Of a stretch of 64,000 bases of DNA, positions 26,302-53,771 are shown one piece after another. The DNA lies in assembly GCA_018222605.1 (NCBI GenBank), contig JAAEZZ010000002.1, positions 186,001-250,000 of the forward strand, read 5' to 3'. The translations under genes were made by a program, and so were the position numbers. The notes below the pieces were generated by a model. It was not told where the DNA came from and did no database searches. It was given only the letters and a program-made list of their open reading frames with translations. This DNA comes from Alphaproteobacteria bacterium. GTDB taxonomy: Bacteria > Pseudomonadota > Alphaproteobacteria > Caulobacterales > Hyphomonadaceae. How positions within the stretch are numbered: the first letter of the stretch is position 1; each line of letters begins with the position of its first letter.

Positions 26302-26674
26302 AGACCAGACGGCCGGGCAGCCGCTGGCATGCTGGTAACGGCATGCTGGAGGAAAGTCCGGGCTCCAGGGAAACAGGGCGACGGCTAACGGCCGCCCGGC
26401 GCGAGCCGAGGGAAAGTGCCACAGAAAGCAAACCGCCCCTTCTCGAAGGGGTAAGGGTGAAAGGGTGGGGTAAGAGCCCACCGCAGGCCTGGCGACAGGA
26501 CTGGCACGGTAAACCCCGCCCGGAGCAAGACCGAATAGGGGGCGCATATGGGCCGTTTTCCGCCCGCGCCCCGGGTGTGTCGCGTGAGGTGCCTGGCAAC
26601 AGGCATCCCAGAGGAATGGCTGCCAGATCTCCGCAAGGGGACGAACAGAACCCGGCTTACAGGCCGTCTGGTCT
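26302..26674 (+). ncRNA. rnpB: RNase P RNA (bacterial class A)
   Basis: The catalytic RNA of RNase P, which matures tRNA 5' ends. The P1 helix is AGACCAGACGGCC (26302) paired with GGCCGTCTGGTCT ending at 26674. Inside are the universally conserved GAGGAAAGTCCGGGCTCC near 26346, ACAGAAAGCAAACCGCC near 26421, AAGGGTGAAAGGGTG, and the 3' GGACGAACAGAACCCGGCTTA. The length of about 373 bases is typical of alphaproteobacteria. A TATATA at 26290-26295 is positioned as a -10 box for a transcript starting near 26302. Confidence 0.96.
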
Positions 26675-26836
26675 TATTTACCGCGCGCTCCTTCACGCGT
26701 GGCGTGCCCCGGAATTACCTTGTTTGTCGGGCCAGAAGTGTGTTGCGACGCCACTCAACCAAAAGTATAAGTCCGGCAAGCGCCCTGCCATCTGCTGCGG
26801 GTCATACGGAAGACAGCTATCTCGAAGGAGTATGGG

Positions 26837-49963: not shown

Positions 49964-50061
49964 AAGCCAAGGCGGACCGGGGTGATGTTCAAAACGCCCC
50001 CTACCTCACCTGAGCCGTTGTCCCGGACTGCCTTGGCCTACCCACTTTCCCTGAGTGCAAC

Positions 50062-50100
50062 AAAAAAGGCGCGAAAGCCTCATTCGAGCTTTCGCGCCTT
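50062..50100 (-). terminator. Terminator of the hisS-hisZ-hisG operon
   Basis: AAGGCGCGAAAGC (50067-50079) pairs perfectly with GCTTTCGCGCCTT (50088-50100). On the minus strand it is followed by TTTTTTG. It lies about 90 bases after the hisG stop codon. Confidence 0.85.
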
Positions 50101-50188
50101 CCACCGTTTGCAGCGTTTCCTCCCAGAAACTTGCTGTGTCATATGGCCGCGCGTTTAGAGTTATGTCAAGATTATGAATTCAAGTTTT

Positions 50189-50899
50189 TCAACAAATCTG
50201 GTCAAGAATCTTTGCTGCACTGCGCAATAAAGACAAGGAGTTCAGCGCTTGCGGGGTCCATTCGGCACCTGTGGAGACTGCAAGAACGGCCTGACTTTTC
50301 AGAATAACCCCGTCCGACAACACTTTAAGACCGTTAGCTTTAAGGGTTGCCCCTGTTGACGTGATGTCGACGATCACATCAGCCGCCCCGGTGGCAGGTG
50401 CAGCTTCAGTCGCCCCCGCGCTTTCGGCAAGGCGATATTCCCCGACAGATTTGGCCGCGAAGAATCGGCGTGTGAGTCGCATATATTTGGTTGCGACTCG
50501 CAGGCGGCGATGATGCGCCTTGCGGAAGGCGGCACCAGCGGCTTCCAGGTCCGACATCGTGTCGACATCCAGCCAGGCCTGCGGCACGGCAACGATGACG
50601 TCTGCACCGCCAAAGCCAAGCCGCTCGGCGACCCGAAACTCGGCATCGCCGGTGGGTGACAGGTCCTGCAGCAGGTCTTCGCCGGTCACGCCGGCATGTA
50701 TGGTGCCATCGATCAGGCCCTGTGCGATCTCACGCGCGGAGAGGAGACGCATGTCGACCTCTCCCAGCCCATCGATCTCTGCCTGGTAGCCACGCTCCCC
50801 GCCGATCTGGCGAATGGGAAAGCCCTGCTCACGGAACCAGTCTTCTGTCTTTTCCTTCAGCCGCCCTTTTGACGGGATGGCGAGTGACAGGATGCTCAT
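50189..50899 (-). CDS. hisG: ATP phosphoribosyltransferase, short form
   Basis: A 236-residue HisG, the first enzyme of histidine synthesis. It is the short form without the C-terminal regulatory domain, which needs HisZ for activity and feedback inhibition. N-terminal LAIPSKGRLKEKTEDWF, and the PRPP-binding ADVIVDITSTGATLKANGL are present. It overlaps hisZ by 4 bases (ATGA) and is the last gene of the hisS-hisZ-hisG operon. Confidence 0.95.
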   Translation of the reverse strand: MSILSLAIPSKGRLKEKTEDWFREQGFPIRQIGGERGYQAEIDGLGEVDMRLLSAREIAQGLIDGTIHAGVTGEDLLQDLSPTGDAEFRVAERLGFGGADVIVAVPQAWLDVDTMSDLEAAGAAFRKAHHRRLRVATKYMRLTRRFFAAKSVGEYRLAESAGATEAAPATGAADVIVDITSTGATLKANGLKVLSDGVILKSQAVLAVSTGAEWTPQALNSLSLLRSAAKILDQIC

Positions 50900-52026
50900 A
50901 CCGTCTCTCCCTTTGCACGCAGGATACGATCCGGGCGGACAATACCGCCAATGCCCGACGCAGAGGCGCGCGAGCGGGACAAACCTTCGATCAGACCATC
51001 ATACCGCCCGCCGGACGCTAGAGGCTGGCGGGAGGTGAGGTTCTGGCCAAATGTCTCAAAAACGAAGCCGTCATAATAGGTGAAGCGCCGCCCGAAGCCG
51101 GAGCGAAACCGCGCCTCGCCAGCAATGGAGGGCATGGCGGAGAGGATCGTTTCCATGCGGCGGGCAATCCGTTCGATGACGGATGACACGGCGCTAAGGC
51201 CATGCTTGTCGGCAATCTTCTGTAGTACGTCTGCGGCCTCAGCCGCCGGGCAGTTGACCTCAGACAGGTCTGACAGCGCGGCGCGCGCGGCTTCCGGCAC
51301 GCCGCCCGCATCATGCACCGCCGCCTTCCCGCGCAGGCCGGCAATGATCTCAGCCTCGCTGCGCGTACCGATCATGGGAATGCCGCGCGCCTCAAGCACT
51401 TTGCGGAACTCGGTCTCGGCTGCCTTGGCACCATTGGCGTCCAGCGTGGCCTGCAGGTCTGAATCAACGGCCTGCGGCGCGGCCATGAGCAATTCGCGTA
51501 CACCGCCCTCCTGACGGAAGGCGCGCTTGAGCAAATCCGTTGTGATACGAGCAAGCCCCAAAGCATCGACGAAAGCAGGGAACACGGAAAGGTCGCCCAT
51601 CTCGGTTGCCGTGGGGGTGACATCACAGGCGGCCACGGCTTCGCGCACCAGCGTGAAGGCCTCGGCATCCGCCTCCGGCGTGCTGTCGCGGCCAAACCAT
51701 TCGAAGCCGACTTGTGTGAACTCCATCGGATCATGATCCGTAGCCGGAAGGCGGAAGGCGCGCGCGGCATAGGTGTAGGCTTTCGCGCCATCGCCGCCAG
51801 AGGCCCGGCGCTCTGCCTCCTGCCCCGCCACTGGCAGGGTCAGGTCTGGCCGCATGACCATTTCTGTTCCGCGATGATCAGAGAACACGCACAGGCGGGC
51901 GCGCACGGCCTCACCCGACAGCTCAAGCGGAATGTCCGACGGCAGAACATAGGCCGGATCGATGCGCTCTGCGCCCGTTGCCTCGAAGACACCGCGCGCT
52001 GCGGCTACCAGCGCGTCCTGTGTCAT
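50896..52026 (-). CDS. hisZ: ATP phosphoribosyltransferase regulatory subunit
   Basis: A 376-residue HisZ, a catalytically inactive relative of histidyl-tRNA synthetase that activates short HisG. It keeps synthetase motif 2-like MRPDLTLPVA and a degenerate motif 3 region (LASGGRYDGLIEGLSR), without an anticodon-binding domain. It overlaps hisG and hisS by 4 bases each. Confidence 0.93.
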   Translation of the reverse strand: MTQDALVAAARGVFEATGAERIDPAYVLPSDIPLELSGEAVRARLCVFSDHRGTEMVMRPDLTLPVAGQEAERRASGGDGAKAYTYAARAFRLPATDHDPMEFTQVGFEWFGRDSTPEADAEAFTLVREAVAACDVTPTATEMGDLSVFPAFVDALGLARITTDLLKRAFRQEGGVRELLMAAPQAVDSDLQATLDANGAKAAETEFRKVLEARGIPMIGTRSEAEIIAGLRGKAAVHDAGGVPEAARAALSDLSEVNCPAAEAADVLQKIADKHGLSAVSSVIERIARRMETILSAMPSIAGEARFRSGFGRRFTYYDGFVFETFGQNLTSRQPLASGGRYDGLIEGLSRSRASASGIGGIVRPDRILRAKGETV

Positions 52027-53507
52027 GCCTGAGCCTCAACGATCTTGCGCACGGCCTCAACCATTTCGGCGCGTGCCACTTCGATCTGGCCGGGGCGGGC
52101 TTCACGGTATTCTTCATTGGACTTGATGGCCTTCGCCTTCAGCGCGCCCATTTCAAGATCCTTGATCGTGACGGTGCCCTTGGCGATCTCGTCCTCGCCC
52201 ACCATGACGACGACCGGAGAGCCGCGGCGGTCAGCATATTTCATCTGCTTACCCATATTGTTCGCGCCGCCCATATAGGCCTCCGCACGCAGACCGGCCG
52301 CGCGCAGTTCTGCCGCCGTGGAGAGCGCGACAGACGGGTCATCCCGGTCCAGACTGAGCACGACGACCGGTCCATCCAGCTTCGGCGTCTCATCCATGAT
52401 CGCCAAAGCGGCGGCGAGACGGGAAATGCCGATGGAAAAGCCGGTTGCCGGAACGCTCTGCCCCGTGAAGCGGGCGACGAGATCATCATACCGGCCGCCA
52501 CCGCCAATGGAGCCGATACGATAGGTCTTGCCGTCCTCGCCGGTGACTTCGCGCAGCAGCTCTGCCTCATAGACCGGACCGGTATAGTATTCGAGGCCGC
52601 GCACGACCGACGGATCGATCACGACATCCCCTTCCGGCGCGCCGAGCGCTTCGAGGGCTTTGGCGATGGCTTCCAGCTCAACGAGGCCAGCCTTGCCTTC
52701 TTCGGTATCCCCGGTGGCTTTGGTCAAATTGGCAAGGGTTTCGGCGCGAGTGTCTGCGCCTGCCTGCGCAAAGGCCAGCACACGCTTTACCTCATCCGCG
52801 CCAAGGCCTGCCCCTTTTGTATAGTCTCCGCTTTCATCCATGCGGCCTTCGCCGAGCAGATCTGCTACGCCGTCAATGCCGAGACGGTCCAGCTTGTCCA
52901 GCGCACGCAGGATGGCGAGGCGGGTCTCGGGATTGGAGGCCCCTACCCCGTCCAGCACACCGTTCAGCAGGCGGCGCGTATTAACGCGGATGACGAACTC
53001 TCCGGTTTCCATACCGACGGCCCGCAGCGCTTCGGCGCCCATGGCGATCATCTCGGCATCGGCGTGATAACCCGGCGCGCCAATCGTATCGGCATCGCAC
53101 TGCCAGAATTCGCGGAACCGGCCAGGGCCCGGCTTCTCATTGCGCCAGACAGGCCCGGCAGCATAGCGGCGGAACGGACGACCAAGCGACTGGCCAGCCT
53201 CTGCCACGAAGCGGGCAAGCGGCGCGGTCAGGTCATAGCGCAGCGCCATCCATTGCTCGTCATCATCCTGAATCGCGAAGACACCTGCATTCGGGCGGTC
53301 GGCATCGGGCAGGAATTTGCCCAGCGCGTCAGCATATTCGAACGCGCCGGTCTCCAGCGCCTCGAAGCCCCATTTGCGATAGACGCCGGTGATCGTCTCA
53401 ACCAGCTTCGCCTGAGAATGGATCAGGGCCTCACGCTTGTCGGGGAAGCCGCGCGGCTTGCGGGCAAGTTGCTTGCCGGTGAGGGGCTTTGGTTCCTTGT
53501 CACTCAT
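52023..53507 (-). CDS. hisS: Histidyl-tRNA synthetase
   Basis: A 494-residue class II synthetase charging tRNA-His. Motif 2 is in MALRYDLTAPLARFV with VWRNEKPGPGRFREFWQCD, the histidine-binding RGLEYYTG is present, as is motif 3 near GGGGRYDDLVARF. A C-terminal anticodon-binding domain ends the protein. It is the first gene of the operon with hisZ and hisG, placed behind a histidine leader. Confidence 0.96.
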   Translation of the reverse strand: MSDKEPKPLTGKQLARKPRGFPDKREALIHSQAKLVETITGVYRKWGFEALETGAFEYADALGKFLPDADRPNAGVFAIQDDDEQWMALRYDLTAPLARFVAEAGQSLGRPFRRYAAGPVWRNEKPGPGRFREFWQCDADTIGAPGYHADAEMIAMGAEALRAVGMETGEFVIRVNTRRLLNGVLDGVGASNPETRLAILRALDKLDRLGIDGVADLLGEGRMDESGDYTKGAGLGADEVKRVLAFAQAGADTRAETLANLTKATGDTEEGKAGLVELEAIAKALEALGAPEGDVVIDPSVVRGLEYYTGPVYEAELLREVTGEDGKTYRIGSIGGGGRYDDLVARFTGQSVPATGFSIGISRLAAALAIMDETPKLDGPVVVLSLDRDDPSVALSTAAELRAAGLRAEAYMGGANNMGKQMKYADRRGSPVVVMVGEDEIAKGTVTIKDLEMGALKAKAIKSNEEYREARPGQIEVARAEMVEAVRKIVEAQA

Positions 53508-53640
53508 GTCTCTTCAGGTCCTGGTTGCCGACGCGCCCCGCATAGACGGAGACGGCCGTATTGGGAAGACAACACACCGAAGAAGCCCGAAGCCGGAGCA
53601 GCTCGCCTGATCTTTTCTGGTTCTGGAGAATGAACACTTT

Positions 53641-53670
53641 GAAAAAGGCGCAGCCGGACCGGTTCGCGCC
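53641..53670 (-). terminator. Attenuator terminator of the his operon
   Basis: On the minus strand GGCGC (53666-53670) pairs with GCGCC (53647-53651) around an AACCGG-containing loop, followed by TTTTT (53642-53646). It overlaps the antiterminator hairpin at 53665-53681, so only one can form. Confidence 0.65.
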
Positions 53671-53681
53671 TCTTCGGCGCG
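53665..53681 (-). promoter_or_regulatory. Antiterminator hairpin of the his leader
   Basis: CGCGCC-GAAGA-GGCGCG (minus strand) forms a perfect 6-bp stem directly after the leader stop codon. Its second arm is the first arm of the terminator at 53641-53670. A ribosome at the stop codon would cover the first arm and let the terminator form. Confidence 0.65.
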
Positions 53682-53720
53682 TCACGCGTGGTGATGATGG
53701 TGGTGCAGCATCGTGTTCAT
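53682..53720 (-). CDS. hisL: Histidine leader peptide (MNTMLHHHHHHA)
   Basis: Thirteen codons including stop, encoding MNTMLHHHHHHA with six consecutive His codons (CAC and CAT). It sits 175 bases before hisS. Downstream are overlapping antiterminator and terminator hairpins. This is the classic design of an amino-acid attenuator: stalling at His codons in low His-tRNA favours read-through into hisS-hisZ-hisG. The likely -10 box is 9 bases upstream, so the peptide may be translated from an almost leaderless RNA. Confidence 0.88.
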   Translation of the reverse strand: MNTMLHHHHHHA

Positions 53721-53728
53721 TGCGCTGG

Positions 53729-53757
53729 CGGATACTGAGCGCAGCCCGGAAAGTCAA
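53729..53757 (-). promoter_or_regulatory. Promoter of the his leader
   Basis: On the minus strand TTGACT (53752-53757), 17-base spacer, TATCCG (53729-53734). The predicted start is near 53722, only a few bases before the leader ATG at 53720. Confidence 0.5.
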
Positions 53758-53771
53758 CCGGCTGGGCCGGA

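Follow-up and report, generated by a model that had tools for sequence, protein, structure and literature searches.

Known leader-peptide attenuators and the hisS locus of the window

The leader of the his operon in E. coli and related bacteria combines a peptide with His codons, a terminator that competes with an antiterminator, and histidine genes downstream (in the available text of PMC9413887). The available part of PMC8632094 describes an alphaproteobacterial leader-peptide attenuator of an aminoacyl-tRNA synthetase gene: uORFC-8-2, which precedes cysS in Rhodobacterales, contains two Cys codons, usually at positions 14-15, and has a consensus that ends in a U-run in all cases. The trpL attenuator of Sinorhizobium meliloti has a leaderless ORF whose ATG is the transcript start; it contains Trp codons, precedes trpE(G), and both its RNA and its peptide act in trans (according to the accessible parts of PMC10117765 and PMC7298713). 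Leaderless mRNAs are common in alphaproteobacteria, with 375 in Caulobacter, where a small leader frame also stands before trpS (available text of PMC4117421). In bacilli, a His leader places His codons before hisZ and a hisS paralogue, and the part of that study at hand reports no similarity between the leaders of Firmicutes and Proteobacteria (PMC2965389). Our literature search found no description of an alphaproteobacterial hisS leader or of a His/Gln leader, a result that does not establish absence from print.

We studied a short His-rich frame ahead of hisS in 64,000 nucleotides of an alphaproteobacterial genome (the window means this whole stretch). We call this genome Hyphomonas because of close relatives such as Hyphomonas beringensis, to whose HisS that of the window is 98% identical. 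The genes downstream of the leader were identified with NCBIfam models:

52023 to 53507, minus strand: hisS, histidyl-tRNA synthetase, 494 amino acids (TIGR00442, 370.7 bits, over the cut-off)
50896 to 52026, minus strand: hisZ-like gene, ATP phosphoribosyltransferase regulatory subunit (best match NF008953, 194.5 bits, under the curated cut-off of 384; adjoins hisG)
50189 to 50899, minus strand: short hisG, ATP phosphoribosyltransferase (TIGR00070, 162.1 bits, over the cut-off)

The first-pass annotation had named these genes hisS, hisZ and short hisG; this stands for hisS and hisG, while the second gene is better called HisZ-like, its match being under the curated cut-off. Neighboring genes overlap by 4 bases, and some 175 bases separate the leader stop codon from the start of hisS. 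Among 28 Hyphomonas loci, hisZ follows hisS in 27 and hisG comes next in 26, the misses (L043, L059) being cut by contig ends. The annotation had also called the placement unusual. One leader ahead of hisS-hisZ-hisG was indeed found, and the arrangement is less unusual than it seemed, given the published leaders of cysS and trpS in alphaproteobacteria and of hisZ and a hisS paralogue in bacilli.

We propose, with a rough probability of 0.72, that the leader is a ribosome-mediated attenuator reading the charging of tRNA-His. We read it so because the His run is unique in the genome and conserved, the hairpins are paired across 62 leaders and Gln codons track a tRNA-Gln gene. The counterweights are a T-tract that is poor in nearly all relatives, antiterminator covariation from one sequence, and five Hyphomonas genomes with hisS and without the leader. 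If true, one His-tRNA sensor would govern both the charging of tRNA and the first reaction of histidine synthesis in an alphaproteobacterial family. Moreover, the 62 related switches, which differ in T-tract, P1 (the long-range helix described below) and tRNA-Gln, would form a natural series together with the relatives without a leader, making it possible to test attenuators with poor U-tracts and leaderless ORFs, and leader codons that follow the cargo of the operon.

Neither the Rfam model His_leader (RF00514, which we take to be the family of the E. coli his operon leader) nor T-box matched the leader region, at the gathering threshold or at E up to 10. By these tests the leader is a member of neither family, and it would work like the leader-peptide attenuators. 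It differs from the E. coli his leader in the genes that it would control, in its likely leaderless start, in the helix P1 and in the missing Rfam match. Elsewhere in the window, positions 26305-26675 of the plus strand contain an RNase P RNA class A gene (321 bits).

The leader frame and its promoter

The promoter elements and the leader frame are arranged as follows:

53752 to 53757, minus strand: -35 element TTGACT
53729 to 53734, minus strand: -10 element TATCCG, a weak match to the consensus
53682 to 53720, minus strand: leader ORF MNTMLHHHHHHA, 12 amino acids and TGA
53688 to 53705, minus strand: His-codon run CAC CAC CAT CAT CAC CAC, the putative sensor

The frame reads ATG AAC ACG ATG CTG CAC CAC CAT CAT CAC CAC GCG TGA (53720-53682), which confirms the six consecutive His codons noticed in the first-pass annotation. 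A pattern of six His codons of this kind occurs once in the genome of 3,695,974 bases, ahead of hisS-hisZ-hisG, and the reversed control gave none. The 62 leaders that we aligned contain 3-7 His codons each (175 CAC and 158 CAT in total), and at least three are consecutive in each of 32 distinct Hyphomonas leaders, a set in which identical copies were merged. The peptide sequence is mostly kept among the Hyphomonas leaders.

The -35/-10 pair that had been reported just ahead of the frame is present: TTGACT is followed by 17 bases, TATCCG, 8 bases and the leader ATG. The spacer of 17 bases and the motif TAT[CT][CG]G were found in all 32 distinct Hyphomonas leaders, with 7-10 bases between the -10 element and the ATG, and in 62 of 62 leaders TTGAC stands 35-39 bases ahead of the ATG, which is the start codon in every one of them. 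A generic sigma-70 scan of the window did not report this promoter, since the -10 element matches TATAAT at 3 of 6 positions, which is under the limit of the scan. The position of the -35 and -10 elements sets where a transcript is expected to start, and the spacing observed here therefore places the predicted start on the ATG or only a few bases away from it. A tetramer resembling a Shine-Dalgarno sequence precedes the ATG in only one of the 62 leaders. The leader ORF is thus probably translated from leaderless or nearly leaderless RNA, as had been suggested for the window, and the promoter spacing in 62 of 62 leaders supports this. Conserved bases were also seen just ahead of hisS, where we found no convincing -35/-10 pair of a second promoter. 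Between the upstream thioesterase-like gene and the leader lies a short GC hairpin (53758-53770, minus strand), whose T-containing tail is the -35 element.

Occurrence of the leader

A comparison with relatives had been named beforehand as the check on conservation of the His run and hairpins, and both are kept in the 32 distinct Hyphomonas leaders. These share one pattern: TTGACT, 17 bases, the -10 motif given above, 7-10 bases, ATG, the leader, CGCGCC, three variable bases, a strand shared by two hairpins and a terminator strand. One more Hyphomonas leader and 29 leaders in two other genera, here g14 and g20, were found beyond them. The alignment of 62 leaders used throughout comprises 33 from Hyphomonas, 27 from g14 and 2 from g20; a decayed leader with two His codons (L204) and two repeats (L225, L226) were left out.

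A first covariance model matched in 47 of 299 genomes of the order, all of them in Hyphomonadaceae. In this family, a second model, built from the 62 leaders, matched in 65 of 104 genomes, among them 34 of 41 other Hyphomonas, 28 of 29 g14 and 2 of 3 g20 genomes; the remaining match, in g17 (E 0.008), was not counted, as it is far from the hisS of that genome. Across a sample of the whole class, the second model matched in 2 of 385 genomes, both Hyphomonas, and in none of the other 383. The filters in both large searches were strict enough to miss weak matches, and the model is blind to other kinds of His leader. Within these searches, the leader is found in three genera of one family, and it stands before hisS in every locus used. 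Three weak matches were obtained in the window's own genome; the best (G000:C3:27034-27100, L142) looks like the C-terminal end of a protein with five His, beside a gene that by eye we take to be obg, and was judged unrelated.

Seven Hyphomonas genomes gave no match: no hisS was found in two, and no leader before hisS in the other five. In the loci of this genus that lack the leader (L021, L024, L027, L030, L055 and duplicates) hisS has a different upstream region. The order hisS-hisZ-hisG is kept in loci without the leader as well (L045, L049, L051, L055).

Another family of the order, Caulobacteraceae, and its relatives have His codons with hairpins ahead of hisS too; such a leader was found at eight Caulobacterales loci (L060-L064, L067, L118, L119), six of which contain HHHxxHH or HHHxHHH. 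The Caulobacteraceae leader (for example MTRFAHHHGHHHPTLAGSAGGLVA) differs in its length of 24-25 residues and in having other hairpins near the hisS start; no T-run was seen there, and our model R2 does not match it.

Competing hairpins after the leader stop codon

Right after the leader stop codon the RNA reads CGCGCC-GAA-GAGGCGCG-AACCGGTCCGGCT-GCGCC-TTTTT, and contains the following segments:

53676 to 53681, minus strand: segment 2, CGCGCC, 5' arm of the putative antiterminator
53665 to 53672, minus strand: segment 3, GAGGCGCG, 3' arm of the antiterminator and 5' arm of the putative terminator
53645 to 53652, minus strand: segment 4, TGCGCCTT, 3' arm of the terminator
53642 to 53646, minus strand: TTTTT after the terminator hairpin, nearly species-specific

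In the antiterminator, CGCGCC (53681-53676) pairs with GGCGCG (53670-53665); in the terminator, GGCGC (53670-53666) pairs with GCGCC (53651-53647), followed by TTTTT (53646-53642). Since one strand is common to both, the hairpins are mutually exclusive, as the first-pass annotation had recognized, and both persist over the 62 leaders. Folded alone, they have predicted energies of -12.6 (antiterminator) and -15.7 kcal/mol (terminator). In the alignment, 99.7% of 372 cells are paired in the antiterminator and 92.7% of 729 cells in the terminator; P1 and the terminator were used in fitting the alignment, and both are favored in these pair counts as a result. The RNA after the leader frame is conserved as well as, or better than, the frame itself.

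Among the 32 distinct Hyphomonas leaders the antiterminator stem is invariant and the terminator stem nearly so, and thus there is little covariation to judge by within this genus. Over the 62 leaders, the antiterminator has one compensatory pair, contributed by L205 (CACGCC/GGCGTG), and 9 of 500 shuffles do as well. The terminator has 4 of 12 pairs, with 24 cells, changed on both sides: this number of pairs was reached in 155 of 500 shuffles and this number of cells in none of 500. A single clade of eight contributes 16 of the 24 cells, which belong to inner pairs; double changes of the outer pair occur in L029, L179 and L186. The fold of the window also predicts a short protector hairpin across the stop codon (CGCG-TGA-CGCG), which would mask part of segment 2 after release; its letters are present in 19 of the 62 leaders.

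Predicted long-range pairing in the read-through RNA

Beyond the two hairpins, we identified a helix that would join the leader start to RNA past the terminator, and a large predicted fold:

53713 to 53721, minus strand: left arm of helix P1, AATGAACAC, in the start-codon region of the leader
53629 to 53637, minus strand: right arm of helix P1, GTGTTCATT, just past the terminator
53620 to 53623, minus strand: GAAC, a possible alternative partner of GTTC at 53635-53632 (hairpin P4), low confidence
53571 to 53683, minus strand: predicted giant hairpin M of the read-through RNA, with segments 2-4 paired to the downstream leader

In P1, the leader start ATGAACAC pairs with GTGTTC, which is found in all 32 distinct Hyphomonas leaders, while the 11 leaders starting with ATGAAAAC or ATGAGAAC have GTTTTC as the right arm. 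Over the 62 leaders, 96.6% of 417 cells are paired, and 4 of 7 pairs, with 14 cells, are changed on both sides; shuffles equalled P1 in 0 of 500 cases on four measures and in 4 of 500 on a fifth. Two of the four double-changed pairs come from L206 alone, a misaligned row. When this row is excluded, 12 cells in 2 pairs are left, one pair having turned from CG to AU in 11 leaders belonging to one clade and the other from AU to GC in L205. The main change is clade-wide and therefore counts as about one event. In an alignment-free test in which arms were swapped, leaders scored 17.6 with their own arms, 10.8 between clades and 9.4 (s.d. 0.24) when shuffled, a result that rests mainly on the 11-leader clade; low scores (10-13) were obtained for L020, L186, L187, L205 and L206. 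As a predicted structure, P1 is well supported by these comparisons. The rare third helix of uORFC-8-2, in contrast, lacks covariation according to the available text of PMC8632094.

Since the right arm lies at or past the expected release point, P1 would belong to the read-through RNA. The GAAC of P4 is invariant in the 32 distinct Hyphomonas leaders and hence offers no covariation. The alphaproteobacterial LexA box is a direct repeat with fixed spacing; GTTC and GAAC form an inverted pair of varying spacing here, and a LexA-type site was rejected.

The predicted hairpin M of the window begins at the stop codon and spans about 115 bases (-64.3 kcal/mol, z -5.72, 0 of 200 shuffles). Sixteen leaders folded in the same way gave z from -0.45 to -5.35, the weak Hyphomonas cases being L052 (-1.38) and L059 (-1.79). 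For 47 leaders (33 from Hyphomonas, 14 from g14), the two halves of M pair with a mean of -53.6 kcal/mol, compared with -35.2 (s.d. 0.63) with shuffled 3' halves. The other 15 leaders, which include the tRNA-Gln carriers, have a mean of -32.5 without a shuffle control of their own, and z lies between -0.45 and -3.05 in five of them. A leader's own halves paired no better than those of other species (median rank 18 of 46), so that the swap test gave no covariation support for M; consensus folding of the aligned post-leader region did not recover it, with a covariation term of about zero. M is therefore a predicted fold, marked in most Hyphomonas tested and in part of g14, without covariation.

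Ribosome states, termination and the output of the proposed switch

A ribosome covers about 12 bases past the start of its A site, and our folds of the ribosome states assume this footprint. The distances in the sequence fit it: a ribosome at the stop codon would cover segment 2 and just free segment 3, and a ribosome on the first His codons would leave segment 2 free. With the ribosome at the stop codon and the RNA ending 9 bases past the hairpin, the terminator was part of the best fold in 61 of 62 leaders. When the ribosome was placed on the first or second His codon with RNA of the same length, the lowest-energy fold contained the terminator in 47 of the 62 leaders and the antiterminator in 6 of them. 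With the RNA reaching 45 bases past P1, the same stalled state contained the antiterminator in 56-57 leaders and the terminator in none. Because the short stalled RNAs favor the terminator, antitermination would have to depend on the 2:3 hairpin forming earlier, that is, on kinetic trapping.

Our preferred model is as follows. RNA polymerase would make the leader with a ribosome loaded on the 5' end of the RNA. When His-tRNA is plentiful, the ribosome would run to the stop codon and cover segment 2, segment 3 would pair with segment 4, and most polymerases would stop there, or pause and release. When His-tRNA is short, the ribosome would stall on the first His codons, and the free segment 2 would trap segment 3 before segment 4 is made; with 2:3 paired, the polymerase would read into hisS-hisZ-hisG, so that more tRNA would be charged and the first step of histidine synthesis would increase. 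In the read-through RNA, the start-codon region would then pair with GUGUUC just past the terminator (P1), and the downstream RNA would fold over segments 2-4 (M). Together, P1 and M may lock the leader against further translation, which would use six His per round in starvation, and may protect the 5' end and shield the untranslated stretch.

In the eight bases after the terminator, 23 leaders have 2 T, 19 have 3 T, 13 have 4 T and 7 have 5 T, and six of these last seven belong to g14. The hairpin followed by TTTTT that had been annotated is present in the window, but this T-run is not kept across the relatives, 5 T of 8 being reached by 7 of the 62 leaders. As TTTTT is almost private to the window species, the hairpin is only a candidate intrinsic terminator for the family. 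A comparison was provided by the operon end:

50057 to 50101, minus strand: hairpin with T-rich tail after hisG, taken as the operon-end terminator

We scanned 29 records for such a stem after hisG. The gene end was recognized in 17 of these, and 15 of the 17 have a stem followed by at least 5 T of 8 no more than 260 bases away; in L036, one of the two without it, the flank is only 35 bases long. This search took the best site within 260 bases and only loops of 3-8 bases, being laxer on position and stricter on loop than the count in the leaders; given these different rules, its result shows only that T-rich terminator-like sites exist in Hyphomonas. Applied to the leaders, the same search found no site within 70 bases of the stop codon in any of the 62, the window included, since the loop of the attenuator is longer; hence only raw T counts were compared. 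Generic promoter and terminator scans gave matches about as frequent as in shuffles, and served only to note the hairpin after hisG.

The poor T-tracts leave room for a switch with the same His sensor and another output, in which the U-poor hairpin would pause the polymerase, Rho-dependent termination or RNA decay before hisS would decide, and P1 and M would set the exposure of the RNA. We regard this as unlikely: the 2-4 T among eight bases in 55 of 62 leaders, the T-rich hairpins (at least 5 T of 8) available after hisG in the same genus, and the conservation of P1, which like M can form only in RNA past the hairpin, agree with it, whereas the T5 tract of the window species, the resemblance of the attenuator stem to the stems after hisG and the 15 leaders of the other group in which M is not evident argue against it. 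A translational output, with the ribosome site of hisS hidden in an alternative fold, is very unlikely, as the hisS start lies some 175 bases downstream of the leader stop and about 63 bases past the predicted end of M, although in Caulobacteraceae the other type of leader stops roughly 90 bases short of the hisS start, which some of its folds reach.

A tRNA-Gln gene and Gln codons in the leader

Scanning all 62 loci for tRNA genes revealed a second, divergent tRNA-Gln (TTG) gene with encoded CCA between leader and hisS in seven (L178, L180-L183, L186 and L187), which belong to the sister genera g14 and g20. Gln codons are present in the leaders of all seven carriers and in 2 of the 55 others (Fisher p 7e-8, uncorrected for strong kinship, as the carriers represent two lineages). 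The two exceptions are L057, and L184, whose leader stands beside an apparent tRNA-Gln remnant. In g14 the Gln codons stand inside the His run or behind it; in g20 they precede it, and L187 also has them inside. A HisS tree of 32 fragments, built after dropping 14 of 46 loci as too short or unrecognized by motif, gave good support to 6 of its 27 inner branches. A search with the tRNA of L180 found one copy in each of the 7 carriers and none in 7 non-carriers, and the carrier genome G095 has a second tRNA-Gln elsewhere that is strongly different from the copy in the leader region.

These data bear on what the small frame does. A working His-rich peptide, for example a metal-binding one, would explain why the peptide sequence is largely kept; it is highly improbable, since 3-7 His are tolerated, the RNA after the frame is equally or better conserved, Gln codons accompany tRNA-Gln, and the leader stands before hisS in every locus used. 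A chance polyhistidine frame is refuted in our judgment by its single occurrence in the genome and its retention in three genera with compensatory changes.

Within the reading as an attenuator, we tentatively suggest, as a possibility that we ourselves find somewhat doubtful, a lineage of self-locking, retunable attenuators: the read-through RNA would fold the leader start away, by P1 and then M, and the codon sensor would follow the cargo of the operon, with His alone or with His and Gln where tRNA-Gln is present.

By eye, L184 has a degenerate tRNA-Gln copy with the Gln codons kept, and L223 has a shortened one and no Gln codons. In L218, a distant member of the class, a short frame (MKNIVLNHTHHHTHAKHGLGN) stands 215 bases before a hisS match and is followed by a tRNA-like sequence, possibly representing another His leader.
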